Both the position numbers and the translations under genes were made by a program. The notes under the pieces are model-generated. The model was not told the origin of the DNA and searched no databases. It saw nothing but the letters and a program-made list of their open reading frames with translations. Positions 9,612-27,896 of a stretch of DNA of 29,388 nt are shown piece by piece; within the stretch, counting starts at the first letter, position 1; every line of letters starts with the position of its first letter. The stretch is taken from the IMG/VR virus record IMGVR_UViG_3300041964_000007, positions 1 through 29,388 of that record; one strand, given 5' to 3'. This DNA is from a virus.

Positions 9612-9616
9612 GGTGA

Positions 9617-14470: not shown

Positions 14471-14478
14471 TAGGTCTC

Positions 14479-14506: not shown

Positions 14507-14509
14507 CAA

Positions 14510-14545
14510 GGGAAAGGCGAGGCCCCGCCGTAGCGGAACCTCGCC
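14510..14545 (-). terminator. Terminator-like hairpin after the tail tube gene
   Basis: On the minus strand GGCGAGG and CCTCGCC (14516-14522 with 14539-14545) form a long GC-rich stem, extended inward by CCGC/GCGG around TACG, and followed by TTT. It lies 30 bases after the corrected tail-tube stop and just before the next CTAAATA element. Confidence 0.65.
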
Positions 14546-14574
14546 CTCACAAGCTCAACTCTTTGCAGGAAGTT

Positions 14575-15490
14575 TTAGAGCTTCGTGAACATGATGTTGG
14601 TGCCCGCCGTGGCATCATCGATGCCAACCATATTGAGCGTGATGAACTGGTTCGAACCGAGACCTCATCATTGATGTCCATCTCGAAACGTGCGGCCGGG
14701 AGATCAATCTTGTAAGCGTTGCCGGTTCCGGCCCCGAGCGTGAGGGAGACCGCAAAGCTCGTGTCCAGAGCCGCCGCGCTGTAAGCTGCAATACCGTTCC
14801 GGTATGCCTTCACGGACAGCTTCGGGATACGGAATCCGCTAGTGCCAGTGCCGATCGATGCCGCATTGCCGAGAGCATTTTGGCCTCACGGGTGTGCTCA
14901 ACCGAAAGCTCGATGCTGTTATAGACCAAACCGTTGAGACCGGCGATCGAGATCACGCCAACGTCATCACCGATCAGTTCTTGTCCCTGTGTCGGGTCCG
15001 TGTAGGTCGCGCCGGTGATCATCGAAGTCGAGACGGTCTTGTTCATGCCGATCATGTCGAACGTGATCTCGGCATTGCTCGAAGCGTCAACGGTGAGGTT
15101 GAAGGAGCGGACCATCATACCGAGCGCGCGGGTGTAATCCGGCACGCCCTTCTCATACATGATCTTTTCGATCGTGTGAGTGCAGTCCGTGGTGCCCGCC
15201 TTGAGGACGTTACCGGACCACGTGCCGCTCATGCCCGACTCAAGCAACATATCGATCGCGGTATCGCGACGGAAGTGAGTCTTGAGTGATCCACTTGCCG
15301 AACGATTGGTGCGACGGAAGCCCGCCATCGAGCGGTTCTGACGCATGACATCGGAACTCAGCGACTTCGTATCCAGCTTGAAATCAGCCCCGGGAATGTA
15401 GTCGAGAAACGTGAACGCGGGTGTTGCCACCGTGGTCCCTTCGACCACCTCGCGAACAAGTGCATACTTTGTGTCGGCCGGATTGCTCAT
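14575..15490 (-). CDS. Major tail tube protein (two homopolymer frame breaks)
   Basis: The start is ATG 15490 (MSNPADTKYALVREV) with AGGAG upstream. The first 200 residues carry tail-tube features: an early TPAFTFLDYIPGADF segment, SASGSLKTHFR, a central NLTVDASSNAEITFDMIG and VYNSIELSVEHTREAK. The frame breaks at TTTT 14878-14881; one more base restores NALGNAASIGTGTSGFRIP. A second missing G near 14661 restores DEVSGSNQFITLNMVG and the ending NIMFTKL at TAA 14575, giving about 305 aa. This is the tail tube family placed between the tail terminator and the chaperones. It polymerises around the tape measure. It is expected to be among the most abundant virion proteins, which fits its own leader and terminator. 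Confidence 0.8.
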
Positions 15491-15517
15491 CCTGAAATGC
15501 TCCTAAAAACTGTTAAA

Positions 15518-15543
15518 GGAGCACAAGCTCCGATGATATTTAG
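15518..15543 (-). promoter_or_regulatory. CTAAATA element with leader stem-loop before the tail tube gene
   Basis: The motif is at 15537-15543. Five bases downstream lies a perfect GGAGC/GCTCC stem with a 4-nt loop (15518-15531). The 46-nt leader then runs to AGGAG and ATG 15490. Confidence 0.55.
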
Positions 15544-15568
15544 GAGTTAGGGCTTGCGTGACTTGGTT

Positions 15569-15967
15569 TTAGTGCTGAGCCCGATACGGGATGCTCACCT
15601 TGATGGTGAACTGTTCGCCTTCGAAATGGCTCGTGCTGTAGTCTGGCGTGGCGAACCGAATGCGGAAGTCGGGTGAGGACCAATCCCGGAAGGTGTCCTT
15701 GAAGGTCTCGGTGAGGGCGTATCCGTCATGATCGGAGAGGCCATCCGGGACCATCACTTGAAGATAGACCCAACCTTTTTGTTCATAGGTTCGGCTGGCG
15801 ATCGATTTGCGCGTTTCCGCAGTTGGTCGCACCGATAGCCGCGCCCAGATGATACCTTCCGGCTTCGGGCTGGCGGGGTCATTGTCGAACACCACCGGAA
15901 CCGCATTATCCCACTCATTGAGGAAGTGCGTCCGGATGATATCGATATCGTCTAGGTTCGTGGCCAC
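15569..15967 (-). CDS. Tail terminator, DUF4128-like
   Basis: A 132-aa protein from GTG 15967 (MATNLDDIDIIRTHF). The pattern of an early F-x-x-x-W (FLNEWDNAVPVVFDN), a WARLSVRP strand, a central EQKGWVYLQVMVPDG and an ending FTIKVSIPYRAQH fits the DUF4128/gpU-like tail terminators. Those form a ring that stops tail polymerisation and joins head and tail. It lies directly after the HK97-gp10-like gene and before the tail tube, the usual position. Start choice is supported by the CTAAATA spacing; there is no Shine-Dalgarno. Confidence 0.75.
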   Translation of the reverse strand: MATNLDDIDIIRTHFLNEWDNAVPVVFDNDPASPKPEGIIWARLSVRPTAETRKSIASRTYEQKGWVYLQVMVPDGLSDHDGYALTETFKDTFRDWSSPDFRIRFATPDYSTSHFEGEQFTIKVSIPYRAQH

Positions 15968-15972
15968 GTCGA

Positions 15973-15979
15973 TATTTAG
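15973..15979 (-). promoter_or_regulatory. CTAAATA element before the tail terminator gene
   Basis: It contains the TAA stop (15976-15978) of the preceding gene and ends 5 nt (TCGAC) before GTG 15967. Confidence 0.55.
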
Positions 15980-16281
15980 TCGGTGTTCTTGTCGATCGCG
16001 GCTTCAACAAATCCGGCCGGGGATTGAGAGGAAGAGCCCTCATTCAGTTTGCCGATATAGGGGCTGGTGGAATACACCTCAGGGGCAAGCCGAACGGTTG
16101 TGTCGAGTTGCCACGAGTTACGCGCCGCGCCAGTATCGACGGGCGTTCCAACCGGAGGCGGGGCGGTGAGATCGGTGAAGATATCGATCATCGTCCCTTC
16201 GAGTTCATCAGCGATCTCATCGAGCAACCATTCGTTGATCTTATCGGGGTTGAGATCACCGGTATCGATGACGATCCTCAC
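15976..16281 (-). CDS. HK97 gp10-like neck / tail-completion protein
   Basis: A 101-aa protein from GTG 16281, whose GTGA overlaps the previous stop. The middle reads PPVGTPVDTGAARNSW and then YIGKLNEGSSSQSPAGF, the hallmark 'PVDTG-A-R-SW ... Y---LN-G-S-QAP-GF' of the HK97 gp10 family. These proteins sit at the head-tail interface and are needed for tail completion. It belongs to a run of three four-base overlaps (16625, 16278), so it is translationally coupled with the connector genes upstream. It is slightly shorter than typical gp10 (about 110-150 aa) but complete. Confidence 0.8.
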   Translation of the reverse strand: MRIVIDTGDLNPDKINEWLLDEIADELEGTMIDIFTDLTAPPPVGTPVDTGAARNSWQLDTTVRLAPEVYSTSPYIGKLNEGSSSQSPAGFVEAAIDKNTD

Positions 16282-16628
16282 TTCAGGCCTGCCACATAGA
16301 TGATTGCGCCGGTGCCATCGGGGTTGATCTCTTCCACGGTCTCGATCTCGAACGTCCGAAAGCCCACGGTGAGCTTGTCCCGAACCCGAACCTCAACGTT
16401 GACGTGAGCGGTTGCTTGCTGGTGCTCCGTGCCATCGGCGTTGCGGACGGTCCGCGAACCGAGCACGGCGCGCGCCGGGAGGTTCACCAGTGAGACGTTC
16501 ACGCGGCCTGCCGCCTTGTCGGCGTCGCTCCGAGGTGCCGTGATGGTCCGCGTGATCGTGGCGGGCGGCACGTCAAATGCGTCGAATAACTCAACCGCAA
16601 GGGACCGGAAGTCATCGAATAGGCTCAT
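16278..16628 (-). CDS. Head-tail joining (head closure) protein
   Basis: A 116-aa protein from ATG 16628, overlapping the upstream TGA as ATGA. The opening MSLFDDFRSLAVELFDAF is helical. The remainder is beta-rich (ARAVLGSRTVRN, VNVEVRVRDKLTVGFRTFEIETV, GAIIYVAGLK), which is the pattern of small head-closure and joining proteins. Gene order supports this: connector gene before it, gp10-like gene after it. I do not assign a specific family name. The role would be to close the portal complex after DNA packaging and provide the tail-docking surface. Confidence 0.65.
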   Translation of the reverse strand: MSLFDDFRSLAVELFDAFDVPPATITRTITAPRSDADKAAGRVNVSLVNLPARAVLGSRTVRNADGTEHQQATAHVNVEVRVRDKLTVGFRTFEIETVEEINPDGTGAIIYVAGLK

Positions 16629-17110
16629 CGGATTAGGCGTCCGACCGTGATGGTGTTGCTCAGATTGGCGTTAGCGATCGGCGCGAGTAGCGCGGTGATG
16701 GCGGGGTAAGGATCACCCGGACTGTCATCGTCATAGACGGTTGTGATCTCACCAAGTGGTGCGAGCTTCTTGGTGGTGCTCTTGACGCCACGCTGAGCCG
16801 GGGCGCTGAGAGGCCCTGTGAGGGCGTAGGCGGCCAAGATGATGGTGGCGGCCTTCACGGGAGCCGGGACGCCCTCGATGCCGTCTGTTGGCCATTGTAG
16901 GCCCTGAGAAGCGGTCATGCGCCGGTAGTGAGCCCGATACGTCGCCTCGATGTAGTCCGTGGCGATCACGAGTGCCGTCCCTTGGGCGGGGCCTGTGGCG
17001 GCTCCCCATGCGGTGTTGCCTCGCATCGCGTGATAATCGGCCGCGTATTCGAGGCTGGCGTAGCTGTTAGCGCCGGTGACGCCGGACCCATTTTCGACTG
17101 TGAAGCTCAT
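16625..17110 (-). CDS. DnaT-like (DnaT_2) head-tail connector protein
   Basis: The start is ATG 17110 (MSFTVENGSGVTGANSYASLEY), five bases after an ATAAATA element; an open frame to 17245 exists but crosses the capsid gene end and a terminator. The 161-aa product matches the family annotated as 'putative DnaT-like ssDNA binding protein', found in phages directly after the major capsid gene. Features: ANSYASLEYAADYHAMRGN, WGAATG, then ALVIATDYIEATY and GLQWPTDG. Despite the family name its position makes it a head-completion adaptor (gp6-like). Confidence 0.75.
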   Translation of the reverse strand: MSFTVENGSGVTGANSYASLEYAADYHAMRGNTAWGAATGPAQGTALVIATDYIEATYRAHYRRMTASQGLQWPTDGIEGVPAPVKAATIILAAYALTGPLSAPAQRGVKSTTKKLAPLGEITTVYDDDSPGDPYPAITALLAPIANANLSNTITVGRLIR

Positions 17111-17115
17111 ACGGG

Positions 17116-17122
17116 TATTTAT
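17116..17122 (-). promoter_or_regulatory. ATAAATA element before the connector gene
   Basis: A variant with A in first position, 5 nt (CCCGT) before ATG 17110 and 10 nt after the capsid terminator hairpin. No Shine-Dalgarno is seen. Confidence 0.5.
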
Positions 17123-17132
17123 GAAAGCCGAA

Positions 17133-17162
17133 GGGGCACCGAGCCTTCCGGCCCGATGCCCC
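17133..17162 (-). terminator. Terminator-like hairpin after the major capsid gene
   Basis: A 13-bp stem (17133-17145 with 17150-17162) is perfect except for two G-U pairs and has a GGAA tetraloop on the minus strand. It begins 22 bases after the capsid stop. The downstream tail is TTCGGCTTTC, so termination could be partial, lowering expression of the connector genes relative to capsid. Confidence 0.6.
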
Positions 17163-17184
17163 CACGGTGTTCCCTTTCGGGTTC

Positions 17185-18195
17185 TTAGCCGTTGGTGCGG
17201 AACGCAACGATCGCGGCGTTCTTGCGCGAAACCTTGCGGTCCCATGCCGACGCGGCGTCATACGCGGACGCAGCCGGAGAGCCGGTGTTAGCCGACACGG
17301 TTGCGGCCGAAGAGAAGCCAACCGGGTGAAGGATTAGCTGCTTGCGGCTGGTCACGGTCGAGAGACCCCATCCGTTTCCGGCGCGCTCATCGGTAACAAC
17401 CGCCACCGAGCGTGCACCAAGGTTTGCCTCACCGAACGCCAGAGCGCCGCGACCGAGCAGATAGGTCGTGTAGGTGGTGCGGTTGGTGCCAACCACGGCG
17501 GGCATACCGTCATCAATGATGACCGGAAGACCCATGTAGGTCGCGAACGGCTGAGTGGCCGAGGCCGGGTCCGTGTTCGTCGGCTCATTCTTGAGCAGGT
17601 TGAAGAACACACGCGAGTGCATGACGATCAGTTGCAGCTTGCCGAACGCATCGCCCATCGAGGCCATCGCTTCCGTCACGGTGCCGACGTTCGCCAGTTC
17701 CGAGGCAGCCGCAGCGCCCACCGCATCGGTCGCAACGTTGCGGACCATATCACCAGCATCGTTGGCGATGTTGTCCTTGATCACGCCGGACAGCTTGGCC
17801 AGCGCGAAGCGCTGGTAAGCCTGCACCCAATAGGGAGCGACTACATTGTTGACGATGTGACCGAGAATGTCCTCACCCGAGAGAGTGGACGCAAGCTCGG
17901 CTTCCCCGAACGTCTTCGAGAAATAGTCCTTCTGATAGGACTGCGGACCCATCTTGATGCCGTTGACGCCAGCGTTCGTTCCATCGTCCTTGGCGAGATC
18001 GGGATCAGAGTAATCCTGAAGACCGAAGAGCGGGAGCGTGCCGGTGTGGCCAGCCTGACCCGCAAGCGCGGCCATTTCGTTCGAGGTGACAATCGCACCC
18101 GAAGAAAGCAAAGCCGACTTTGCAGTTACCGCTTCGGTGACAGCGGCGGAAAAGATATTCGGATGAATGATATCCGAGAGGGAAGTATGTGCCAA
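17185..18195 (-). CDS. Major capsid protein
   Basis: A 336-aa protein that builds the HK97-fold shell. It opens MAHTSLSDIIHPNIFSAAV, then SGAIVTSNEMAALAG, GTLPLFGLQDYSD, an E-loop-like YQKDYFSKTFGEAELAS and a spine-helix region with WVQAYQRFALAKLSGVI. Later MHSRVFFNLLKNEP and PVIIDDGMP are typical of the 'phage coat protein' family next to DUF4055 portals. The start is TTG 18195, seven bases after GGAG; no ATG or GTG in frame fits better, so a major virion gene uses a rare start. It lies between scaffold and connector genes with its own leader and its own terminator. Confidence 0.88.
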   Translation of the reverse strand: MAHTSLSDIIHPNIFSAAVTEAVTAKSALLSSGAIVTSNEMAALAGQAGHTGTLPLFGLQDYSDPDLAKDDGTNAGVNGIKMGPQSYQKDYFSKTFGEAELASTLSGEDILGHIVNNVVAPYWVQAYQRFALAKLSGVIKDNIANDAGDMVRNVATDAVGAAAASELANVGTVTEAMASMGDAFGKLQLIVMHSRVFFNLLKNEPTNTDPASATQPFATYMGLPVIIDDGMPAVVGTNRTTYTTYLLGRGALAFGEANLGARSVAVVTDERAGNGWGLSTVTSRKQLILHPVGFSSAATVSANTGSPAASAYDAASAWDRKVSRKNAAIVAFRTNG

Positions 18196-18239
18196 AGTGG
18201 TTCTCCATCGAGATTGACCGGCAACCTCAAGTGGAGCCG

Positions 18240-18265
18240 GAGCCCCGAAGGGCTCTGGTATTTAG
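18240..18265 (-). promoter_or_regulatory. CTAAATA element with TTCG stem-loop in the capsid leader
   Basis: The motif is at 18259-18265. Three bases downstream is a GAGCCC-TTCG-GGGCTC stem (18240-18255), an especially stable tetraloop. A 63-nt leader then leads to GGAG and the TTG start. Confidence 0.6.
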
Positions 18266-18306
18266 TTGGGCAGTATCGTATGAAGAAGATTTAGCGACTT
18301 TGGCGA

Positions 18307-18942
18307 TTAAACCTTCAAGTTAGAGCCAACCGCAGCGGCAATGCTGTTCGCAACATCAGAGCCCTTTTCATTGGCGATCTTGGAGAAAGCCGTTAGGGTG
18401 AGGGTCTCCTTGGTGAAACCATGGGTGTTTGAAGCGCCCGTAGTCGAACCCATTGCACCCGCCCCGCTGTTCTGAGGCGCGGCGACATAATGCTTGGCCG
18501 CGTCGCTTGCGAAGAAGTCATTGAGGTGATCGTTAAGCGCCTTGTCGCCAACGACGGCTTCACCGTCTTTCATCGTGGCACCGGCCTTGAGGAACGTGGT
18601 GAGAATGTCCGCGTGATGTGGCAAGACGCCAGCCTTCGCGATCTCTGCACTGATCACGGCATCGATCTTGACCGCCGATAGGTCACCGTTGAGCCGGGTA
18701 AGCTGATCGGTGAGCTTCTTGATCTCGGCATCGTGCTTTTTGGTGAGGCTCGCCTTGATGGCCTCGATGTCGCCAGTCTTGGTGGCGGCTTCGTTGGCGG
18801 CTTCTTCCGCAGCGGCTTCGGCGGTTTCCTTGTCGGATTTCAGCTTACGGACTTCGCCAATCAGTTCGGCGTTCTTGTCCTTGAGTGCCTTCGTGGCATC
18901 CGCAACCGCATCCGCGATTGCCTTCTTCGTTTCTTCGTCCAT
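18307..18942 (-). CDS. Capsid scaffolding protein
   Basis: A 211-aa protein from ATG 18942 with AAGGA six bases upstream. The first 115 residues are charged and helical (ADATKALKDKNAELIGEVRKL, then KKHDAEIKKLTDQLTRL), the coiled coil expected of scaffolds. A short 'GVLPHHADILTTFLKAG' domain and a flexible glycine/serine/threonine stretch (NSGAGAMGSTTGASNT) precede a C-terminal helix that probably contacts capsid. Directly upstream of the capsid gene in the standard order MuF - scaffold - capsid. Scaffolds guide procapsid assembly and are then lost; I see no protease domain. Confidence 0.8.
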   Translation of the reverse strand: MDEETKKAIADAVADATKALKDKNAELIGEVRKLKSDKETAEAAAEEAANEAATKTGDIEAIKASLTKKHDAEIKKLTDQLTRLNGDLSAVKIDAVISAEIAKAGVLPHHADILTTFLKAGATMKDGEAVVGDKALNDHLNDFFASDAAKHYVAAPQNSGAGAMGSTTGASNTHGFTKETLTLTAFSKIANEKGSDVANSIAAAVGSNLKV

Positions 18943-19008
18943 TACATGTCCTTTCGCGACTCAATCGAGTTAGGTTGGTGCGCAGCACCGGTGCGAAAGG
19001 ATCACGAA

Positions 19009-19029
19009 CCCCCACGCGGGGGTATTTAG
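19009..19029 (-). promoter_or_regulatory. CTAAATA element with leader stem-loop before the scaffold gene
   Basis: The motif (19023-19029) abuts a CCCCC-GCGT-GGGGG stem at 19009-19022 with no spacer. The leader is 80 nt, the longest of the set, and ends in AAGGA and ATG. Confidence 0.6.
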
Positions 19030-19224
19030 TCAGTCGAGATAATCGGGCGGGATATCGCCCTCATAGACTGGATCAGTGATGATCAGCCGAACGGCATCAA
19101 GGGCGCGCGCGTGATCGGGATAATCGAGTTGCGCGGCCTGCCACTCGATATCGCGCATGTCCTCTAGGGTGAGATCATGACCCTTGGCGAGCAAATCGCT
19201 CAACACTTCACTTGGCGGCTTCAT
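19030..19224 (-). CDS. Small hypothetical head-region protein
   Basis: A 64-aa acidic protein from ATG 19224 that overlaps the end of the MuF gene by 17 bases and stops at 19030, just before the CTAAATA element of the scaffold. The sequence (MKPPSEVLSDLLAKGHD, a following LEDMRDIEWQAAQL and an ending GDIPPDYLD) is probably helical with no membrane segment. Codon use matches its neighbours. Overlap-coupled small genes between MuF and scaffold are common, but I do not recognise this one. Confidence 0.65.
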   Translation of the reverse strand: MKPPSEVLSDLLAKGHDLTLEDMRDIEWQAAQLDYPDHARALDAVRLIITDPVYEGDIPPDYLD

Positions 19225-21322
19225 CTAACAGTTCCTCGATCAGGTTCACGAGATCGGTATCGGCCAAGTCGCGCCGACCCATCATGAACGCGGCAAAAGA
19301 CTCGGCAAACCATTCGGCCTCATTGGTGGTCGCATAGGTGCTCGACAGTTGGTTACGGCGCTCGATGCCGCGTCCCTGTAAGTTGCCCGGGGCGGCACCA
19401 TGAAACTTGTTGAAGAACATCTGTTTCAGGCGACGCTCAAGGGGCGGGGTGCCGACTGTGGCGCGCCGACCTTCCTTCTTCCACATTTGATGGATGTGGT
19501 GCCCGGTCTCGTGGAACAGCACCGTGCGCATCCGATCAATGCCGGTGAAATACTTATCAACCGTATAAGGCCGCTTGGTGATCTCCTCACCGACCTTCCA
19601 TGCGCTCACCTCATCGGAGGCTTGGCGTTGCGCCGTGGCGATCTTGCGCCGAAGCTTGAACTCCTTATCGGCCAACTTGCGGTAGCTCATGAATAGCTCC
19701 CGCTCATCAACCAATCGGTTCAGATACCGCTCACGCAAGGCCGGGTCTTGGCTCAAATCCGCGATCTCACTCCTGATCTCACCAATCCGCGTCAACATAT
19801 CGGCAAGCTCGGCTCGCATGGCGGTATGTTCGGCGCTGATCTTACTCAACCCGCCAGATTGCGGGCCAGTTTCATCTACACCAACCCGGCTGGCAAAACC
19901 ATTGAAATGCGTCGGGTGAACGCCAAGCGTTCCATCTCCCATATTGGCGACGGCCGAGTTGCCCGAAATCGAACGGATTGCCCGAAGGCGGGGGAGCTTG
20001 AACGCGTCCGTGATGGCATCAACCTCAGGCATAAGGGCAAGGATGGCCGATGCCGCCTGATCGCTAAACTCGGTCGAGAGTTGAGCCTTCCCGAAGTGCT
20101 CGGCTTTCACGCCCCGGAATTCCGGCCGGGGGTCATAAGCCGATGCCTTGGCATTCTCGGTGAGACGTGTGTTCAGACGTTTGGTCACGTCCTTGCGCGA
20201 GATCACCTCAACGGTGGTGTCATTGATCTCCCGGTTAATCGGAGACGTGAACCGCACCGGTGCCGGTGCAGGCGTTGGCGCTGGTGATCTCACACCACCG
20301 GCGAAGAGCCGTTCGTCAAACTGACGAAGCTCTTGAAGCGATTTGTATCCGCCACGCTCCTTGAAGAAGCTCTGAAAGTCGAACTCGGGATTGGCGCGGA
20401 ATATATCCGCGCGTGCCTTGCCGAGCACTTCGTCTTGCACGCTCTCGGGTTGGTCCTTCAACCATTCACCAAAGGGCTTGTGCTTCTTGCCCTCATTGTC
20501 GCGGCGCGGGATTAGAAGGCTTCGGCACCGTGGGTGCGCCGGGGGTGAGGGGTGCGGGGCATCGATGCCATAGATGGTCCCTGAGCGTCCCTGACAGATA
20601 GCCGATGTCCGGCTATCGAGGATCGATGACCATTCCAGAAACTTAATGGTCTTCGATCGCTTGAAAACTTCTTCACGTGCGCTGTTCTGAATGGCGCTAT
20701 TCGCCGTCAACGCGATCGTGGTTGCATCGCGGCGGGAGGTTTGAAGAATGCCGTCCGTGTAGTTGTTCTGGCGCGTGCCCCGAATGCGGGCGATGGCTTG
20801 GCCGGTGGTCTCGCCAAGTCCCGCCGACATCCTCAACGCACCTTCGAGCCGACGAAGACGGCCCGCTTCCTGAACCTCAAGCCAAGGCATCAGGAGCGTG
20901 ACGCCATCATCCGCGAAGGGGAGGGGAGTGGACTTGATGAGCGATTGTAAAAACTGTGGTCCCGGGATGGTGGTCCGGAGATCGAGCTTCGCGCCCGCCG
21001 TCTTCATCGCCCGTGCGGCAAACTCGGCTTCCGTGCCTGCCACTTCCTCAAGATCACCGATCAGGTTGTTCGCGGCTTTCTGATAGGCGTTGCGATTGAT
21101 CTCCCGATACGCCTCGCGCATGTCCTCAAGCCGCTTGGTGGTCGCGGGTCCGCGATCGAACCCATCGGCCTCGATGCGGGCATACCGGGTGGCGATGAGA
21201 TCGGTGAGGGCCTCATCATATCCATTCAGCGTGCGAACCATCGCATCCGCATGTTCTTGGCCGATGTCTCGCGCCGCCACTGAATGGCGGAACAAGATAT
21301 CCCTGAGCTTGTCCTGATCCAC
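19208..21322 (-). CDS. MuF-type minor head protein fused to a zinc-metalloprotease-like domain
   Basis: A 704-aa protein from GTG 21322. Residues about 1-280 are the MuF/SPP1 gp7-like head-morphogenesis domain. It is helical at first, then SRRDATTIALTANSAIQN, WSSILDSRTSAICQGRSG (231-248) and PPAHPRCRSLL (260-270). A Pro/Ala linker (346-356) leads to a second half. That half has a long helix (495-575) and at 604-608 HETGH, preceded by hydrophobic VLF. At 667-677 NEAEWFAESFA supplies the downstream glutamate expected of gluzincin-like zinc proteases. MuF proteins bind the portal region inside the head and can carry C-terminal effector domains injected with DNA. I infer a packaged protease, acting on capsid or on host proteins. 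Typical lone MuF proteins are 250-400 aa. Confidence 0.75.
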   Translation of the reverse strand: MDQDKLRDILFRHSVAARDIGQEHADAMVRTLNGYDEALTDLIATRYARIEADGFDRGPATTKRLEDMREAYREINRNAYQKAANNLIGDLEEVAGTEAEFAARAMKTAGAKLDLRTTIPGPQFLQSLIKSTPLPFADDGVTLLMPWLEVQEAGRLRRLEGALRMSAGLGETTGQAIARIRGTRQNNYTDGILQTSRRDATTIALTANSAIQNSAREEVFKRSKTIKFLEWSSILDSRTSAICQGRSGTIYGIDAPHPSPPAHPRCRSLLIPRRDNEGKKHKPFGEWLKDQPESVQDEVLGKARADIFRANPEFDFQSFFKERGGYKSLQELRQFDERLFAGGVRSPAPTPAPAPVRFTSPINREINDTTVEVISRKDVTKRLNTRLTENAKASAYDPRPEFRGVKAEHFGKAQLSTEFSDQAASAILALMPEVDAITDAFKLPRLRAIRSISGNSAVANMGDGTLGVHPTHFNGFASRVGVDETGPQSGGLSKISAEHTAMRAELADMLTRIGEIRSEIADLSQDPALRERYLNRLVDERELFMSYRKLADKEFKLRRKIATAQRQASDEVSAWKVGEEITKRPYTVDKYFTGIDRMRTVLFHETGHHIHQMWKKEGRRATVGTPPLERRLKQMFFNKFHGAAPGNLQGRGIERRNQLSSTYATTNEAEWFAESFAAFMMGRRDLADTDLVNLIEELLDEAAK

Positions 21323-21340
21323 GGCCTATTTAGGCCGTGG
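21319..21340 (-). promoter_or_regulatory. CTAAATA element in the loop of a perfect hairpin at the MuF start
   Basis: CCACGGCC and GGCCGTGG (21319-21326, 21333-21340) are perfect 8-bp arms with TAAATA as the six-base loop. The portal TAA stop is inside the loop, and the MuF GTG start (21320-21322) is in the downstream arm, 4 nt after the motif. Confidence 0.6.
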
Positions 21341-22730
21341 GGTCATCCTCGATGCCGATGACGGGCGGACGATCAGCGACTTCCTGAGCAATCCGATCGG
21401 CATCGGCTTCCTTGTCGAACGACTCCGGGAGCGTCTCACCTTCGATCAGGGCATCAAGGAGCGTGTCACGGCTGATCACCCCGGCCTGATAGAGGGACAT
21501 CAGGGATGCGATTTCGTCCTTGGTGAGCTTGGCCGAACCGAAATCGGTGTTGACCTCATAGGTGATCGAACCTTCCTGATAGCCGAGCCAATACGCAACC
21601 CACTTTAGCGCATCGGTGATCTTGCGCGAGATCAGGCGGGCCGTGGATGCCAGCGCGGCATTCTCACTTGCCATCTTGACCTTCAGGGTCTCGGAGCCTT
21701 CCACGCCCGCGCGTTCATCGGCAAGGATGCGAGCGCCGACCTTGGCCATGTCGCTGGCGATTTGTTGCGTGAACAGCATGAGCTTATCGATCGCGACGCC
21801 GGAATATTCCAGCATCCCGATACGCATGTCATTGCCGGACTTGATCTCACCCTTGAGGAAAGTCCCCGGTGCAAGACTGACATCCTGAATCTTGGCGGGA
21901 CCGAACAGATACGGTGTCGGATTGGACGCGAAGAAGCTGCACTGAGCTAGGTTCGCGGATGCGATATAGTGTTGACCATTCAGGTCACACACGTCGCTCA
22001 GCTTGGCTTTCGCCGGGGCGAAGCGGCGGTTGGTCGAAACGAGCACGAACGGGATGCCGACGTTTGCGATCGGGGCACCAGCGCGAAGCGGCTGAATGGG
22101 CTCACCCGCGACATAATCGGCGTTCGGCTCCGGGCGGGACCACATCGTGACGGTGTAGATGCCCTGATCGAGCCATAGCTCCCGGATGATGTCCGGACCT
22201 TCCTGTAGGACCACGCGACCGATGCCGAGCCCGCCGCCAATCAGGGCGGGTTCGATCTTGATGATCGTTTCGGCGCGATAGACGCTCACCACGGGACGGA
22301 CGCCGACCCGCTGAGCTTCCGCCACGCTCATGGCGCGATCGGACGCGGGAAGGTCCACCAGCAACCCGACGAAGTTAGTGAGGAGAAACTCGGAGGCGAC
22401 TTCTTCGGCAAGGTCATCAACGGTGAGGTAGTCGGGTGTGATCGTCTCAAGGATCGAGCCGAGCCCAGCCGGGGCTTCCTTGTTGGACGGCTTGCGGAAG
22501 AGCAAACCGAGCAAACCCTCATGGCACCGGGATGCGCCCGGAAAGAACGGGGTGCGGGCCGCGATCGCCTTATGATGGTCATCGGTGAGACCGGGGTCTT
22601 TCGGGAGATAGCTGGTGCGACGCTCGGAGGATTTCACCACCCGTGCGCCCTCGATCATGTCACGATTGCGCTGCCACTCTTCCCGCCATGCAACAAAGGC
22701 AGGCGTCACCGTATCGATCTTATCCGTCAT
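21330..22730 (-). CDS. Portal protein, DUF4055 family
   Basis: A 466-aa protein from ATG 22730 (MTDKIDTVTPAFVAWREEW). The family features are present: RDMIEGARVVK, then YLPKDPGLTDDHH, a ...RTPFFPGASRCHEGLLGLLFRK hallmark near 54-76, VDDLAEEVASEFL and, in the last third, GVAIDKLMLFTQQIASDMAKVG. DUF4055 proteins form the dodecameric ring through which DNA is packaged and ejected. The length is usual for the family. The gene sits between the large terminase and MuF. The stop codon TAA forms part of the next CTAAATA element. Confidence 0.85.
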   Translation of the reverse strand: MTDKIDTVTPAFVAWREEWQRNRDMIEGARVVKSSERRTSYLPKDPGLTDDHHKAIAARTPFFPGASRCHEGLLGLLFRKPSNKEAPAGLGSILETITPDYLTVDDLAEEVASEFLLTNFVGLLVDLPASDRAMSVAEAQRVGVRPVVSVYRAETIIKIEPALIGGGLGIGRVVLQEGPDIIRELWLDQGIYTVTMWSRPEPNADYVAGEPIQPLRAGAPIANVGIPFVLVSTNRRFAPAKAKLSDVCDLNGQHYIASANLAQCSFFASNPTPYLFGPAKIQDVSLAPGTFLKGEIKSGNDMRIGMLEYSGVAIDKLMLFTQQIASDMAKVGARILADERAGVEGSETLKVKMASENAALASTARLISRKITDALKWVAYWLGYQEGSITYEVNTDFGSAKLTKDEIASLMSLYQAGVISRDTLLDALIEGETLPESFDKEADADRIAQEVADRPPVIGIEDDPTA

Positions 22731-22735
22731 GAACG

Positions 22736-22742
22736 TATTTAG
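22736..22742 (-). promoter_or_regulatory. CTAAATA element before the portal gene
   Basis: It includes the TAA stop of the large terminase (22739-22741) and ends 5 nt (CGTTC) before ATG 22730. Confidence 0.55.
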
Positions 22743-24073
22743 GCGGATGCTCCCATGTAGTTGGCGATCCGACCCGAGACGATCGGCTGATTAGGACCAT
22801 CACCGGTCAAGAGTTCACTCATGGCGTAGACATACGCATCCAAGCGATCGGGAGACTTGCCCCGCTTGCGATCATAGTCACCGGTGAGGCGGACCATCTG
22901 ATCTTCAAGCTCCTTGAACCGAAGATCAGCGGGATGGTGGATATGCCCGGCCTTCATCTCAGCCGCGATTGGCATCGCTCGGATGTTCTTGCCTTGGCCG
23001 CGCCCGGGATTGACGCTCTTGATCACAAGACTGGCATCAGCCGTTCGCAACGTGTGGGCGTTCTGATCACCACCCTGTGTGGTCTCGATAACGACCAATC
23101 CAGCGCCCCAACGCCGATACGCACTCGCGACCTTTTCGGCCCACTCATGGGGGTGATAGCGGCCGGACAAATCCTCCAAGGGATAATAGTGGCGCTCACC
23201 GCCATCCTCGATCGCACCACAGACGAAGATGCCGGTCTCATCCGAGGTTGGTGTATTCGTGACGGCCGGGTCAACACCGATGACGATAAGGTCGAAGTCA
23301 TCCGGCTCGGGCGTGGTGATGCGGTGATTGTCGAGATCAAGGGCGGAGAATAGGGCACCCTCTACTTCATCACTCCACTGGCCTTCAAGGAAACGCTTCT
23401 GTGTCGCTGCCGAGCGGTTCTGGAACTTGTTATAGTAGTTGGTATCAACGTTCGGGTTGGCGTCGGCTCCGAAGTGAAGGGAGGAATAGGACTGCGGGTC
23501 CGTCAACTCCCGCTTGGTATTGGGGACCAGCTTGGCGAGAAATAGCTGATAGAGCCAATGCTTCTTCGATGTCGGATTGCAATCCGCGATCATCTTCACG
23601 GGGCAGGCGGGATGCGCGACGTTGAGGAGACGGGAGTCGATCAACTCGAAAGTTTCGTAATCGAGATCGGTTGCCTCATTGAGGAATATGGTCTGATACT
23701 CGGCACCAAGGACTTTCTGAATCCGCTCCTCATCGTTGACGCCACTGAACACGATCGTGGAACCGCCGATCTCGGGACCGAAGGTGATGGTGAGATCGGT
23801 GGAGTTATACTGAACGAACGGTGCAATCCCGAACGTCGCGATCACGTCCTTGAAGGTTGCCCAAATCGTTGGCTTGATCGAGTTACCGGTGAGACGGAAG
23901 ATCGCATGAGCGCTGCCGGGATGTTGAAGGGCGCGCGCGATCATGAAAGCCGCGATCGCGTAGCTTTTGCCGCCACGGCTTGAGCCATAGGCGAGAAAGT
24001 ATTGATGATCGTGAAGGCGATCGATCAGCGCAAGCTGATGCGGGAATAATGCGGGGCCGTTGTAATCAGACAC
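22739..24073 (-). CDS. terL: Terminase large subunit
   Basis: A 444-aa packaging motor from GTG 24073. ATPase domain: Walker A-like GSSRGGKS at 30-37, Walker B-like TIFLNEAT at 128-135, then the coupling region MIADCNPTS near 161-169. Nuclease domain: IGVDPAVTN near 265-273 with the first metal-binding aspartate, DETG near 278-281, and PDRLDAYVYAMSEL near 408-421. It translocates DNA into the procapsid and cuts the concatemer. The small subunit is not adjacent but 3.2 kb upstream, separated by a regulatory and moron insert. There is no Shine-Dalgarno; the start follows the CTAAATA element by 4 nt. Confidence 0.92.
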   Translation of the reverse strand: MSDYNGPALFPHQLALIDRLHDHQYFLAYGSSRGGKSYAIAAFMIARALQHPGSAHAIFRLTGNSIKPTIWATFKDVIATFGIAPFVQYNSTDLTITFGPEIGGSTIVFSGVNDEERIQKVLGAEYQTIFLNEATDLDYETFELIDSRLLNVAHPACPVKMIADCNPTSKKHWLYQLFLAKLVPNTKRELTDPQSYSSLHFGADANPNVDTNYYNKFQNRSAATQKRFLEGQWSDEVEGALFSALDLDNHRITTPEPDDFDLIVIGVDPAVTNTPTSDETGIFVCGAIEDGGERHYYPLEDLSGRYHPHEWAEKVASAYRRWGAGLVVIETTQGGDQNAHTLRTADASLVIKSVNPGRGQGKNIRAMPIAAEMKAGHIHHPADLRFKELEDQMVRLTGDYDRKRGKSPDRLDAYVYAMSELLTGDGPNQPIVSGRIANYMGASA

Positions 24074-24077
24074 CCGG

Positions 24078-24084
24078 TATTTAG
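24078..24084 (-). promoter_or_regulatory. CTAAATA element before terL
   Basis: Exact motif, 4 nt (CCGG) before GTG 24073. The 180-base gap upstream (24085-24264) holds two hairpin-forming inverted repeats, around CACACC/GGTGTG (near 24183-24196) and GATGCCGC/GCGGCATC (near 24210-24240), but no gene I trust. Confidence 0.55.
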
Positions 24085-24264
24085 AGAGAAGGTGGGGGAA
24101 GCGTGCGCCAACACCTGCCCCCCGGCCGATCGTTCCAAGCCTTAACCGTTAAAATGCACTCCGTCTTCACCACGGCGTTGACACACCAAGGTGTGCAGGC
24201 TTGGCTTGATCGATGCCGCTGATGATCGGCGGGCGGCATCAAGTGGATGGCGGACGGAAACTCG

Positions 24265-24423
24265 TTAGGGCTTGCGTTCCTCGCGAAGTAGCTCCTCAAG
24301 TTCGCTCCGGATCAGCGCTCTAAGGCCCAAGATGATCGCATCTGTGTCGATCGGCGGGACGGTGATCGGCTCGAAGGTGATCGGCTCGAAGGGGATCGGC
24401 TCGAAGTTGATATTGGTCCTCAT
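24265..24423 (-). CDS. Small repeat protein with three FEPI units, 52 aa
   Basis: ATG 24423 overlaps the TGA of the previous gene (ATGA). The product begins MRTNINFEPIPFEPITFEPI, so FEPI occurs three times at five-residue spacing, each from nearly identical 15-base DNA. It is followed by a VPPIDTDAI bridge and a charged amphipathic helix (LIRSELEELLREE) to TAA 24265. This looks like a short linear-motif tail attached to a helix, perhaps a terminase or portal accessory, since it precedes terL. No family recognised; codon use and tight coupling support translation. Confidence 0.55.
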   Translation of the reverse strand: MRTNINFEPIPFEPITFEPITVPPIDTDAIILGLRALIRSELEELLREERKP

Positions 24424-24653
24424 GCCGGGTCTCCTTCGCCAATGACGGGAACGTCACCGGTGACGTTCAGGAGCGCGTCACTCTCGGCCTTGAAGGCCTT
24501 GGCGTCCGCTTCCTTCGCGAACGTAAGCGTGAAGGTGGAGGGGTCATCGAAGTTGTTGGCCGAAACAGCGCCAGCGGCGCGCGCTTCACCGACAATCCGG
24601 GATAGTTGGTTGCCGGGCGTGTGGTCCAGCATGGGAAGGGTGATGGTCTTCAT
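24420..24653 (-). CDS. Hypothetical late protein, 77 aa
   Basis: ATG 24653 (MKTITLPMLDHTPG) lies 5 nt after CTAAATA; upstream in-frame starts cross that element. The predicted product has an alpha/beta look: ISRIVGEARAAG-type helix, FTLTFAKEADAKAFKAES and a C-terminal VTGDVPVIGEG. The DNA coding for NVTGDV is part of a perfect 20-bp palindrome (24449-24468). It is followed by the FEPI gene with an ATGA overlap and precedes terL. Function unknown. Confidence 0.6.
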   Translation of the reverse strand: MKTITLPMLDHTPGNQLSRIVGEARAAGAVSANNFDDPSTFTLTFAKEADAKAFKAESDALLNVTGDVPVIGEGDPA

Positions 24654-24658
24654 GTCGA

Positions 24659-24665
24659 TATTTAG
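24659..24665 (-). promoter_or_regulatory. CTAAATA element before the 77-aa gene
   Basis: Exact motif, 5 nt (TCGAC, the same spacer as at 15968-15972) before ATG 24653, and 9 nt after the terminator T-run. Confidence 0.55.
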
Positions 24666-24674
24666 CCCTGAGAC

Positions 24675-24711
24675 AAAAAGACCCGCCACGGAGGTGAGCA
24701 CGTGGCGGGTC
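24675..24711 (-). terminator. Rho-independent terminator
   Basis: Perfect 11-bp stem GACCCGCCACG/CGTGGCGGGTC (24701-24711 with 24680-24690), 10-nt loop, followed on the minus strand by TTTTT at 24675-24679. This is the most canonical terminator in the window. Confidence 0.85.
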
Positions 24712-24775
24712 AGGTGGTGTTAGTGTCGTGGTATCGAACAAGAACACCGGTGTAGACAAAGGAGAATTATGCCAC
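24675..24775 (-). ncRNA. Candidate phage small RNA, about 100 nt
   Basis: The interval runs from a TATAAATA element (24781-24788) to a perfect rho-independent terminator and contains no ATG-started reading frame on the minus strand. Besides the terminator stem it carries a self-complementary ACACCGGTGT near 24744-24753. The 5' end is predicted 5-6 nt after the element. It could be a regulatory RNA, or the trimmed leader/read-through boundary between the lipoprotein gene and the late genes. Confidence 0.45.
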
Positions 24776-24780
24776 GGGGA

Positions 24781-24788
24781 TATTTATA
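24781..24788 (-). promoter_or_regulatory. TATAAATA element, identical to the T4 late promoter core
   Basis: The only copy in the window matching all eight bases of the T4 late consensus. It lies 22 bases after the lipoprotein stop and drives no obvious gene, only the short interval that ends in the terminator. Confidence 0.55.
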
Positions 24789-24810
24789 CCAGAATGGGGA
24801 ATGGGGTGCA

Positions 24811-25278
24811 TTATTGATCGTCGCCTCGATCGCTCATGACCGTGTTCAAGAAAGCCGCTACCTGATCGGGCGTGGGATTATCGATCCGATCATGTCCGAC
24901 CCAATCCAAGATCGAACCACTCACCTCTCCGTTGACGCGCTCCCATGAGGCCAGAATACGATTGTCCTGAACATCGTATAGGTAGCGCCGATAAGCGCCC
25001 TTACTGGCGGTATAGCCGGGCGACAGGATGCCTACGTCGGCAAAGCATCGATTGGTGCGAGCGTTATAGTTGGACGATTGCGATAGCTCAGCATCGGTGC
25101 CGTTGGTGAGGCGATCGGTGAGCTTGTCCGCCAACTCACCACACCGGGTCCGAAGATCGAACACCTCCTTGGCGGACGCTCTCCGAACCATGGGCGTCGG
25201 TTCAGGAGCCGGGGACGGTGACGGTGCCGGGGCCGAACAAGCGGCCAGTGCGAGCGTGGTGAGGACGATCGCCCTCAT
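24811..25278 (-). CDS. Lipoprotein (probable moron)
   Basis: The start is ATG 25278, overlapping the upstream TGA as ATGA; the product is 155 aa. MRAIVLTTLALAAC is a short signal peptide ending in a lipobox (LAAC), so the mature protein would start at a lipidated cysteine (residue 14), followed by a SPSPAPEPTP linker. The folded part has CGELADKL, then NARTNRCFADVG and YRRYLYDVQDNRILASWE; the two non-lipobox cysteines (CGELA, RCFAD) could form a disulfide. Probably outer- or inner-membrane anchored on the periplasmic side. Pairing with the two-TM protein and position between terS and terL suggest a lysogeny-expressed surface or exclusion factor. No specific function known to me. Confidence 0.7.
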   Translation of the reverse strand: MRAIVLTTLALAACSAPAPSPSPAPEPTPMVRRASAKEVFDLRTRCGELADKLTDRLTNGTDAELSQSSNYNARTNRCFADVGILSPGYTASKGAYRRYLYDVQDNRILASWERVNGEVSGSILDWVGHDRIDNPTPDQVAAFLNTVMSDRGDDQ

Positions 25279-25475
25279 AGGTCGCGGCTCCAATCTTTGA
25301 CGAAGACCGGGATGGTTGCGGCCATGATCATGACCGTGATGATCATGCCGATCGTGGTGATGCCGCCCTCATGACCGTAGGCAATACGGTCCGGAAGAAA
25401 TGCGTAAATGCCGCGCGCCATGGCGACATTCACCACAACGGTCGCGGCGAACCGGCCAAATGTCATCGATCTCAT
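25275..25475 (-). CDS. Small two-TM inner-membrane protein
   Basis: A 66-aa protein; the start is ATG 25475 (MRSMTFGRFAAT) behind a strong GGGGGA, in preference to the longer open frame to 25625, which would cross a plus-strand promoter. Two hydrophobic segments are visible, about residues 8-26 (FAATVVVNVAMARGIYAF) and 38-57 (TIGMIITVMIMAATIPVFV), separated by a polar loop with RIAYGHEGG. The tail WSRDL is charged. Coupled by ATGA to the lipoprotein, suggesting a joint membrane function such as superinfection exclusion. A holin-like role cannot be excluded. Confidence 0.65.
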   Translation of the reverse strand: MRSMTFGRFAATVVVNVAMARGIYAFLPDRIAYGHEGGITTIGMIITVMIMAATIPVFVKDWSRDL

Positions 25476-25561
25476 GGTTCCCCCGTTCTCAAGACCGTGT
25501 GCTGAGCGTCGCTTAGGAGCATCGTTCGTCCACTCTATCTCAGGGCCGAACAGAGGCGCTA

Positions 25562-25613
25562 GGTGTAACGCACGGTTACACCCCTTGACCAGTGTAACGA
25601 AATGTGACATACT
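25562..25613 (+). promoter_or_regulatory. Promoter with overlapping operator half-sites before the XRE gene
   Basis: TTGACC (25585-25590), a 17-bp spacer and CATACT (25608-25613) form a sigma-70-like promoter pointing to the XRE gene. A perfect palindrome GGTGTAAC-5-GTTACACC (25562-25582) abuts the -35. A third GTGTAAC half-site (25592-25598) lies in the spacer. This geometry suggests autorepression. Confidence 0.6.
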
Positions 25614-25639
25614 CCGCTCGTTCAACTATGGAGTATATC

Positions 25640-26068
25640 ATGAACAGTATCGAACTTAGGGCCATCCGTGCCAGCACGGGGCTATCTCAGGCGGGGCTTG
25701 CCGAAGCATTGGGGATCAGCCGCAAGACCTACAATGAGCTTGAGGGTGGCGCGACGATCGACCAGCGCACTCGGCTGGCGATGGAAACACTTGCCCGGAA
25801 GGTGAAGCTGATCCGGGATGCTTATTGGGTGGAAGAGAGCGCGAAGGGGACTTGGATCGTCATCCGTCGCACCGAGCGCGAGATCGACCGGCCCAACGCG
25901 CTCTATTGGGGGCAAGCCGAGCTTATGCTCTATGGCGAGTTCGCGAACGCCGATCACGCCTACCGGTGGGCGGCTGCGCTTCGCCGCGCCGATAATCCTC
26001 GCAACACGCGGAAGCTTGAGCGCGCGCGGGAGGCCGAAGCGCGGGAGCGTGAGGCGATTGACGCCTAA
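25640..26068 (+). CDS. XRE/Cro-CI family transcription regulator
   Basis: One of very few plus-strand genes. ATG 25640 (MNSIELRAIRAS) has GGAG eight bases upstream; a longer frame from 25604 starts inside the promoter. 142 aa. The N-terminal HTH is clear: LRAIRASTGLSQAGLAEALGIS with the second helix QAGLAEALG and the recognition helix around SRKTYNELEGG (residues 23-34). The rest is a helical domain rich in W, R and E, ending in a charged ERAREAEAREREAI tail. It lacks an S24-type autoprotease domain, so it is unlike full-length CI; more like a Cro or a restriction-controller-type protein. It is convergent with the serine recombinase (4-base tail overlap) and divergent from the membrane/lipoprotein pair, which it may control. 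Confidence 0.8.
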   Translation: MNSIELRAIRASTGLSQAGLAEALGISRKTYNELEGGATIDQRTRLAMETLARKVKLIRDAYWVEESAKGTWIVIRRTEREIDRPNALYWGQAELMLYGEFANADHAYRWAAALRRADNPRNTRKLERAREAEAREREAIDA

Positions 26069-26733
26069 GCGACCGGCTCCGGCCGCGTCACCCGGTTGAT
26101 CGTCTCAAGGCTCACGTTCCGGCCGTGTTCGTTGTGAACGTGCACCTTGATGGACCGGAGCGACATGCCGGACCGGCGAAGGTCACGGGCATACTGGATG
26201 ATGGCTTGCTCCTCACCGTCGCGGAACAGCGCGCCATCAGGTCCGACCCGGAACCCGAAGGGCACCTTGCCCCCGAGATACCTGCCACGGCTGCGCTGAT
26301 CGGCCTTCACAACGGAGACACGCTCGCACGTATTGGCGCGCTCAAGCTCGGCAAAGGCGGCTGAGATCGTGAGGAAGGCCTTGGCCATGCCGTTCCCGGT
26401 GATGTCCCCAAGGGAATCGATCACCACGATGCGGATGCCCCTTTTCTGAGCGGCCTCTACCGTCTGTAGGGCGTCTAGGGCGCTCCTGAACACGCGATCG
26501 AGGCGCGGGGTGACGATGGTGTCACCTTTGCGCGCCTTGGCCATCATGAGGCTTCCCTGAGGCCGCTTGGCGATCGGGATGGAGCCGCTCACGCCACGTT
26601 CGATGAAGGTCTCGGTGAGATCAACGCCTTGGATCAGACACCAGCCCTGAATCTGGCGCTCCTGAACCCCAAGGCTCTCGCCTTCTTCGGCTTGGCGATC
26701 GGTTGAAACCCGACAATACCCGAAGACACTCAC
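26065..26733 (-). CDS. Small serine recombinase (resolvase/invertase family)
   Basis: A 222-aa protein from GTG 26733. The catalytic domain is complete: FGYCRVSTDRQ with Ser10 as nucleophile, ERQIQGWC, FIERGVSGS, the arginine motif PRLDRVFRSALDAL, then DSLGDITGNGMAKAFL and FAELERANTCERV. The long E helix is followed by KADQRSRGRYLGGKVPFGF and a C-terminal HTH-like segment (RRSGMSLRSIKVHVHNE). It is distinct from the large integrase at the left end. It overlaps the 180-aa-frame gene upstream by GTGA. Substrates could be an inversion or resolution site; the repeat cluster at 27218-27283 is a candidate. Confidence 0.85.
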   Translation of the reverse strand: MSVFGYCRVSTDRQAEEGESLGVQERQIQGWCLIQGVDLTETFIERGVSGSIPIAKRPQGSLMMAKARKGDTIVTPRLDRVFRSALDALQTVEAAQKRGIRIVVIDSLGDITGNGMAKAFLTISAAFAELERANTCERVSVVKADQRSRGRYLGGKVPFGFRVGPDGALFRDGEEQAIIQYARDLRRSGMSLRSIKVHVHNEHGRNVSLETINRVTRPEPVA

Positions 26734-27209
26734 GAGTAAGCTACCTTGAACATGAAGTAGTGCTGATCGTCATAGTTTTCGTCTTTTTCGATCGCCTCAA
26801 GGGCATCATTCACCATGACGGCACCCGACCTAACAAGAGCACCAAGAACCTCAAGGAGATCGGTGCCGTCTGCATACTCAAGGGAGTGCTGATCGATGGC
26901 GACCGTTGTCCCGGACGGGAGAGAGTAGGTCATCAAGGTGTTGTGCATCGTGATGGTTCGATCCTCACCGGTATGTGGGCACAGGAACGTTACATCAAGG
27001 CTGATTTCGTCCGGTTCGATGATGACATGCGGGCAATCGAAATCGACTTCACCAAACTGTTCAGCATACGTGATGGCCCAAGTCCCGCCATGCGACTCCC
27101 ACGTGTAGTCACCGGGGCCATTGAGCCAAGCGCTGCGAACCCCGTCTGCCACGAGATCATCCGCGATACAGCTAACCTCACCCCTGATCAGTTGGTAAAC
27201 TTCGCTCAT
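26730..27209 (-). CDS. Hypothetical protein co-transcribed with the small serine recombinase
   Basis: The start is set at ATG 27209 (MSEVYQLIRGEVSCIADDL), 159 aa, since the longer frame to 27272 would read through the repeat cluster. The sequence is acidic, with VDFDCPHVIIEPDEISLDV, then CPHTGEDRTITMHNTL and a C-terminal ALEAIEKDENYDDQHYFMF. Two CPH motifs 17 residues apart and HxxW-like positions might bind metal. Four-base overlap with the recombinase suggests one operon; a role as an accessory or directionality factor is possible but is guesswork. No family recognised. Confidence 0.55.
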   Translation of the reverse strand: MSEVYQLIRGEVSCIADDLVADGVRSAWLNGPGDYTWESHGGTWAITYAEQFGEVDFDCPHVIIEPDEISLDVTFLCPHTGEDRTITMHNTLMTYSLPSGTTVAIDQHSLEYADGTDLLEVLGALVRSGAVMVNDALEAIEKDENYDDQHYFMFKVAYS

Positions 27210-27217
27210 TGCCCGGT

Positions 27218-27283
27218 CCTGTCCGCTTGTCCGTTTGTGGACTGACACATAGCGGTGTCCGGTTGTGCTCACAAGCGGACAGG
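27218..27283. repeat. Cluster of GTCCGNTTGT repeats within a 13-bp perfect inverted repeat
   Basis: CCTGTCCGCTTGT at 27218-27230 and its perfect complement at 27271-27283. GTCCGNTTGT occurs in direct orientation at 27221, 27229 (overlapping by two bases) and 27257, and inverted at 27271. It lies upstream of the 159-aa gene/recombinase operon, so it is a likely operator or recombinase-binding site. Confidence 0.6.
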
Positions 27284-27305
27284 AGAACTTTCCGAACTGT
27301 GTGGA

Positions 27306-27884
27306 TCAGCCGTCTTCCTCAGGGTCACCAAGGGCCTTGGTCTCGACCTTCATGGACCAAGCGGGGAGGTTAATGTTCACTCGCGCATGATCCACCTGAA
27401 CCCGCTCACCGAACTCGGCACGGTTTCGTTGACTGGCGTTCTTTTCGATGACCTTGATGAGCAACTCATCGCGCCGGGCATCACCAGTGCTGAACACGCC
27501 ACCCGCCGCGATATCGGGCGTGATGTCCTTGAGCATCCGTTGACCCATGGCCTGAGCCCATTTGATATCCTGATCGAGCTTCTCATCGTCGCGGCACCAG
27601 TTCCACATTGTCCGGGGCGCTGGCAAATGCTCCGAGATCAGGATCGAGGCCATGGACTCACCCATGATCAGGCGCTCAAGTATCTCTTCGATCATTTCGT
27701 CTGTCCTGATCGAGCTTGAGCCGGGTTTCAGGCCAACAATCTGGCGGTATCGAGCGCCGATATCCTTGATGATGACCTTCCCGAGCTTCCGCTGATCGAT
27801 AAGGGCGGGGTCCGGGAGCATCTGTCCGATCGAGACGCTCCCGTTGAGGTGAGCGGGGACGTTTGTGGGGGTTTTTGGAGGCAT
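27306..27884 (-). CDS. terS: Terminase small subunit
   Basis: A 192-aa protein from ATG 27884. The opening PPKTPTNVPAHLNG is basic and flexible. The middle has a DNA-binding HTH followed by the typical small-terminase run ILERLIMGESMASILISE, then PAPRTMWNWCRDDEKLDQDI and WAQAMGQRML (roughly residues 60-125). The C-terminus is the oligomerisation region (DELLIKVIEKNASQRNRAEFG) and an acidic tail. This resembles the Sf6 gp1/G20c-type small terminases that recognise pac DNA and feed the large subunit. It lies 3.2 kb upstream of terL instead of next to it. The start follows GTAAATA by 5 nt. Confidence 0.75.
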   Translation of the reverse strand: MPPKTPTNVPAHLNGSVSIGQMLPDPALIDQRKLGKVIIKDIGARYRQIVGLKPGSSSIRTDEMIEEILERLIMGESMASILISEHLPAPRTMWNWCRDDEKLDQDIKWAQAMGQRMLKDITPDIAAGGVFSTGDARRDELLIKVIEKNASQRNRAEFGERVQVDHARVNINLPAWSMKVETKALGDPEEDG

Positions 27885-27889
27885 ATCTG

Positions 27890-27896
27890 TATTTAC
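27890..27896 (-). promoter_or_regulatory. GTAAATA element before terS
   Basis: The first base is G instead of C; 5 nt (CAGAT) before ATG 27884. It is the most upstream copy in the window; the 27899 stop is two bases away. Confidence 0.45.

Follow-up and report, generated by a model that had tools for sequence, protein, structure and literature searches.

A gene-less copy of a late-promoter-like motif, followed by a terminator, at the border of the terS-terL insert of a siphovirus-type phage

Between an insert that parts the two terminase genes and the late genes beside it, the 29,388-base stretch of viral DNA analysed here (the window) carries a promoter-like word and a terminator with no gene between them. 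Does this site, at 24675-24788 on the minus strand, give rise to an RNA late in infection, and would such an RNA be a regulator or a leftover? From the letters alone, the sequence-only reading had proposed an autonomous promoter-terminator unit and a candidate late phage small RNA. The features at the site are the following.

24781..24788, minus: gene-less copy of a late-promoter-like motif, TATAAATA, with the core TAAATA at 24786-24781
24675..24780, minus: predicted non-coding transcript, 106 nt from the motif edge, or 101 nt if the start is at 24775
24680..24711, minus: terminator hairpin, perfect 11 bp, loop of 10, with a T-run at 24679-24675
24659..24664, minus: following late motif, CTAAATAT, with the 77-aa gene starting 11 nt downstream
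24420..24653, minus: 77-aa late gene by coding score, function not assigned
24423-24265, minus: 52-aa gene after the 77-aa gene
24811..25281, minus: 156-aa probable lipoprotein, end of the upstream operon, 0.33 bits/codon, without a late motif
25275..25475, minus: 66-aa hydrophobic protein of the lipoprotein operon, no family match

The octamer TATAAATA at 24788-24781 is the sole copy in the window (0.01 expected). Its description as the only full motif is correct for the octamer and misleading for the signal, since the core TAAATA was found in 17 minus-strand copies (0.42 expected) and in no plus-strand copy throughout the window. TAAATA is the most over-represented hexamer of the minus strand, and its count reached a maximum of 4 in 200 second-order shuffles. 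The sites, from a word scan and alignment, and the late genes with family matches are listed below.

3611..27895, minus: extent of the 17 TAAATA sites
First bases of the sites, minus: 27895, 24786, 24664, 24083, 22741, 21332, 19028, 18264, 17121, 15978, 15542, 14505, 13658, 9622, 8455, 5216, 3616
27306..27884, minus: terminase small subunit (terS), PF20901, E 3.4e-14, late motif at 27895
22739..24073, minus: terminase large subunit (terL), phrog_979, E 1.7e-49, late motif at 24083
17185..18195, minus: major capsid gene, phrog_247, E 6.6e-71, motif at 18264, then two tandem leader hairpins

Alignment of the 17 sites showed a C before the core in 14 and a pyrimidine after it in 14, with no conserved -35 hexamer. 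An A lies 26 nt before the core in 10 of the 17 (0.76 bits, above the 99% level of random sites), a feature not common to the relatives described below. Near misses are few, as allowing one mismatch in CTAAATA added only four minus-strand sites in the window. At 24786 the core is preceded by A (ATAAATA), not by the preferred C, and is therefore of the less common form; this site lacks a -35 hexamer at 16-18 nt and was absent from the list of a sigma-70 scan.

The majority of the copies stand directly before genes. At 11 of the 17 sites an ATG or GTG 4-6 nt downstream opens an ORF of at least 40 aa, and these include terS, the 77-aa gene, terL, and the portal, head morphogenesis, connector and tail genes. 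At four other sites (19028, 18264, 15542 and 14505) the gene begins 29-80 nt downstream and has a Shine-Dalgarno match with a pairing energy of -4.0 to -7.1 kcal/mol; these genes are scaffold, capsid and two others. Such an arrangement is more in keeping with a promoter than with a translation signal. One site (13658) precedes an uncertain ORF, and one (24786) precedes no gene. At 22741 and 21332 the preceding gene ends with the TAA of the motif. No gene of the terS-terL insert (27272-24811), whose products include a resolvase, a repressor-like HTH protein, a membrane protein and the lipoprotein, has the motif.

We investigated whether the motif set recurs elsewhere. An alignment-based terL scan yielded 80 loci, and the motif survey covered 152 sequences of at least 4 kb (151 loci and the window). 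A strong motif excess together with at least two motif-start pairs was found in the window and in two relatives only, L134, which is part of record G411 (40,295 bp), and L092 (8,887 bp), whose corresponding proteins are 29-48% identical to those of the window. Counts on the late and the other strand were 16:2 in G411 (40,125 bases) and 7:1 in L092. In both relatives copies stand before terS, terL, portal, scaffold, capsid and the connector gene that follows, and in L092 also before the head morphogenesis gene; in G411 the core is preferentially preceded by G. These results point to a dedicated late transcription system, as judged from motif counts and positions.

G411 encodes a large serine integrase, and a resolvase lies between its terS and terL. 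The resolvase-family genes in this interval are both of 222 aa (window 26065-26733, L134 7193-7861), with no match between them by tblastn at 1e-3; the interval may be a hot spot for insertions in both phages. A gene-less motif copy also occurs in G411, at 8511, on the terL side of the insert and 285 nt before the terL motif at 8796. The stretch 8511-8796 is apparently non-coding, with an 11-bp hairpin before motif 8796. The terS-terL interval of L092 has no gene-less copy on the late strand.

Other candidates did not carry the set. Direct terL and capsid relatives among the viral contigs and in one genome, as well as eight phage records, showed no motif excess near start codons, and L036 and L039 were rejected as motif carriers, their copies lying inside ORFs. 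The capsid search of 385 genomes gave two prophage regions, neither with a motif excess, and a scan for capsid pairs gave eight loci, with the motif set in L092 itself only. G360, a full-length terL match, has zero TAAATA in 36.7 kb. Queries with the lipoprotein, the 77-aa protein, the portal and the tail protein gave no match among the viral contigs. The lipoprotein had no relatives in viral contigs, phages or plasmids and four weak partial matches in the 385 genomes; neither it nor the 77-aa protein matched a Pfam or PHROG family. No DNA similar to the window was found in the phage records, and searches of an open-access library showed no paper that describes a motif of this kind for siphovirus-type phages.

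The gap that holds the site runs from the lipoprotein stop to the 77-aa gene (24810-24654, 157 bases) and contains no convincing ORF on either strand. A TAAATA would be expected there by chance about 0.002 times (0.42 per window, scaled by length), and the true value is somewhat higher because the gap has 51.6% G+C and the window 58.9%. The longest minus-strand frame (57 aa, from TTG 24759) crosses the terminator and has a negative codon score and non-coding usage, and a plus-strand frame that starts in the gap (59 aa) has a codon score of 0.08. The claim of about 100 nt without a minus-strand start codon holds for ATG, which is missing between TATAAATA and the hairpin. It fails for GTG, one of which stands at 24775, 5 nt past motif 24786 and thus at the usual distance of a late-gene start, although it reads GTG GCA TAA.

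The terminator was confirmed as first described. Its hairpin, GACCCGCCACG-10 nt-CGTGGCGGGTC at 24711-24680, is a perfect 11-bp stem 70 nt beyond TATAAATA and is followed by TTTTT. It is the sole perfect stem of at least 6 bp directly before TTTT in the window, and a stem of at least 11 bp before a T-run occurred in 0 of 200 Markov sequences. It also lies 100 nt past the lipoprotein stop (24811) on the same strand. Of 40 motif copies, 6 have a stem of at least 9 bp in the 60 nt before them, including stems that follow the capsid genes in G411 and L092, and stems of at least 6 bp are found in that range before 11 of the 40 (background 12.5%, computed for 6 bp, not 9). The hairpin before motif 24664 fits this recurrent arrangement of terminator, then promoter, and its significance is thus partly ordinary. 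The word "autonomous" is doubtful, as transcripts that come from the lipoprotein operon, the last gene of which stops at 24811, would end at this terminator too; its main role would be to insulate the late promoter-like site at 24664. The site was also said to separate a lysogeny insert from the late genes. Late genes do adjoin it, but the insert sits inside the late block, with terS and its own TAAATA beyond.

We next considered where an RNA would start. Stems of at least 8 bp begin exactly at the motif edge at 3 of 40 sites (background 0.11%), those of at least 6 bp at 4 (1.5%) and those of at least 5 bp at 8 (3.9%). The absence of stems that begin inside the motif says little, since the composition of the motif disfavours them. 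The capsid leaders of the three phages share an order of parts (motif, abutting hairpin, second hairpin, start codon) and no sequence.

Window 18264-18195, minus: capsid leader, edge hairpin with one mismatch
L134 13451-13535: capsid leader
L092 7347-7428: capsid leader

The edge hairpin is perfect in the relatives (10 and 9 bp). At about 18696 of L179 (38821 in G411), a motif upstream of a 195-aa gene likewise has a hairpin directly behind it, with a perfect stem of 8 bp. From the hairpins abutting the motif, the RNA is read as starting at the motif edge; these stems suggest such a 5' end, with an RNA-level signal as the main alternative. The putative RNA of site 24786 itself has no hairpin at offset 0.

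T7 class III promoters are many and short, stand before single late genes and start their RNA at the promoter edge, and T7 gene 10 has a leader hairpin before the capsid gene and a terminator after it. The present set resembles them in its placement before late genes, the putative edge start, the capsid leader hairpin and the terminator after the capsid gene. It differs in that its conserved part is about 7-8 bp, against about 20, and in that a single-subunit polymerase was not found: T7-type polymerase (PF00940) was absent from six records including G411 and L092, in a search that had no positive control on records that are possibly incomplete. Sigma-70 region 2 (PF04542) likewise had no match in the possibly incomplete records of G411 and L092, and no recognising factor was identified in the window. 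G411 encodes a T7-type endonuclease I (PF05367) and a PEP-CTERM protein (L179 17854-18186 and 11056-11718).

What the motif is has three answers, of which two make it a promoter. In a T4-type late promoter, a phage gp55-like sigma would read CTAAATA or TATAAATA at -12 to -6, and RNA would begin at the ATG or GTG, leaderless; this shares the promoter reading with our preferred explanation and differs in start site and factor. PMC1524935 gives CTAAATA from -12 as the late promoters of Aeh1 and TATAAATA from -13 to -6 as those of T4. The present motif has in common with them the TAAATA core, preceded by C in Aeh1, the lack of a -35 and the many copies before late genes. T4-type spacing, with a start about 6 nt past the core, also places a purine and the ATG or GTG at +1 in most of the 17 sites. 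The hairpins at offset 0 speak against such a start, because the capsid-leader stems of all three phages (with one mismatch in the window) include the 5 nt directly after the motif, and an RNA that began 5 nt later would lack them. Further differences are the siphovirus-type head genes and the lack of a sigma-70 region 2 match in the two records noted above. We consider this reading unlikely. Word matches in papers on EM1 RNA polymerase and on fungal mitochondria were due to chance and were discarded. As the third answer, TAAATA might be no promoter but an RNA-level signal in long late messages, for cleavage or for translation re-initiation. Its TAA serving as a stop codon at 22741 and 21332 would suit this, and hairpins lying exactly after the motif would be easy to explain if the motif itself were transcribed within a longer RNA, a point that also counts against the promoter reading, as does the lack of the motif in the other relatives tested, G360 among them. 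However, copies far from start codons precede genes with a Shine-Dalgarno, the gene-less copy would be useless, and the hairpins and terminators directly upstream of several copies require a new RNA start. We consider an RNA-level signal quite unlikely.

As to the site itself, it may be an ordinary 3' end, where the terminator closes the membrane protein-lipoprotein operon and insulates 24664, and no RNA begins at 24786, where TATAAATA arose by chance or is the remnant of a decayed motif. The position of the terminator behind the lipoprotein gene, the recurrence of hairpin-then-motif and the less common ATAAATA form agree with this, but the low chance of a TAAATA in the gap, the GTG at the usual start distance and the similar gene-less copy in G411 make it somewhat unlikely. 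At the other extreme, the site may encode a genuine small RNA with a role in trans or in packaging, made late from a position conserved next to terL. Small-RNA genes have their own promoter and an intrinsic terminator, and the site resembles them in its promoter-like word, its length of about 100 nt, its lack of an ORF and its intrinsic terminator; 24786 belongs to the late-gene motif set by sequence and position and is a putative promoter of its own. The segment 24673-24780 folds at -37.5 kcal/mol (z -5.24), better than all 200 shuffles; without the terminator the z is -2.66, and 1 of 200 shuffles does as well, so that the good fold is largely the terminator's. The gene-less motif and hairpin at the insert-terL junction of G411 are similar in position, but not in sequence: the two regions share words of at most 9 nt and differ in length, and L092 has nothing comparable on its late strand. 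Rfam gave no match at the gathering score or with permissive settings, and pairing with translation starts was at best -33.7 kcal/mol, against a shuffle mean of -32.7, so the site differs from such genes in lacking sequence conservation and a target, and its RNA is a predicted one. A genuine small RNA is improbable, and function as a small RNA is unsupported. Morons are inserts in late operons with their own promoter and terminator, and the terS-terL insert resembles them in that it brings a regulator of its own and is bounded by a terminator on the side of the late genes; it differs in that terminator-then-motif also occurs at junctions without an insert. An orphan promoter at a site of insertion or gene loss explains the data on the gene-less unit as well as a small RNA does.

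We propose that sTAAATAy marks the late genes in this phage and its two relatives and would be read by a late-specific RNA polymerase, phage-encoded or phage-modified. RNA would probably start where the motif ends on its 3' side, so that messages either begin 4-6 nt before ATG or GTG or carry leader hairpins. Site 24786 would be one such promoter, at the junction of the terS-terL insert and the late genes, with no gene behind it, and the non-coding RNA predicted from it late in infection would be about 101-106 nt long, with its 3' end at 24675. The terminator would mainly shield the next late promoter, at 24664, from the operon of the insert. We think an orphan transcript, left where a gene was lost or the insert arrived, more likely than an evolved regulator. 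On balance we hold this reading as a whole to be slightly more likely than not. The late, gene-less promoter-terminator unit first proposed is thereby retained as one of 17 late-gene signals common to two relatives, which backs "late" and "without a gene" more strongly than the sequence-only reading could know, while "small RNA" stays a prediction.

The surroundings of the site contain further elements. An inverted repeat, GGTGTAAC-5-GTTACACC, at 25562-25582 and a partial second copy from 25592 (together 25562-25610) flank a plus-strand promoter-like site at 25585 of the HTH gene and are probably operators through which a repressor controls its own gene. A 13-bp perfect inverted repeat (CCTGTCCGCTTGT / ACAAGCGGACAGG) that surrounds 40 bp lies at 27218-27283, before the resolvase operon, and is a candidate recombination site. 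Directly upstream of terL, about 180 nt without a convincing gene (24084-24264) contain the palindrome CACACC-AA-GGTGTG (24182-24195) and could be a packaging site. The lipoprotein is a probable one, its signal peptide with Cys having been judged by eye. No tRNA or tmRNA was found in the window. The hosts are likely sphingomonads, on two weak hints: the HTH gene matches a Sphingobium plasmid at 71.6% across 18% of its length as query, and G411 has a PEP-CTERM protein.

Taken together, these features may tentatively describe an undescribed late system of temperate siphovirus-type phages, in which a 7-8-bp sTAAATAy and a phage factor would provide an edge start before nearly every late gene, with near-leaderless messages, a two-hairpin capsid leader and a gene-less terminated RNA beside terL. 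That siphovirus-type phages combine a T4/Aeh1-like sequence with a T7-like placement is of more interest than the gene-less site. If the motif is a promoter, a word count would find the late genes of this group and predict the 5' ends of their late messages, and the motif, as a CTAAATAC duplex, would serve as bait for the late transcription factor. The RNA of about 100 nt from the gene-less copy would in that case report promoter activity most cleanly, and near-leaderless late messages without a Shine-Dalgarno would test how a phage redirects translation.
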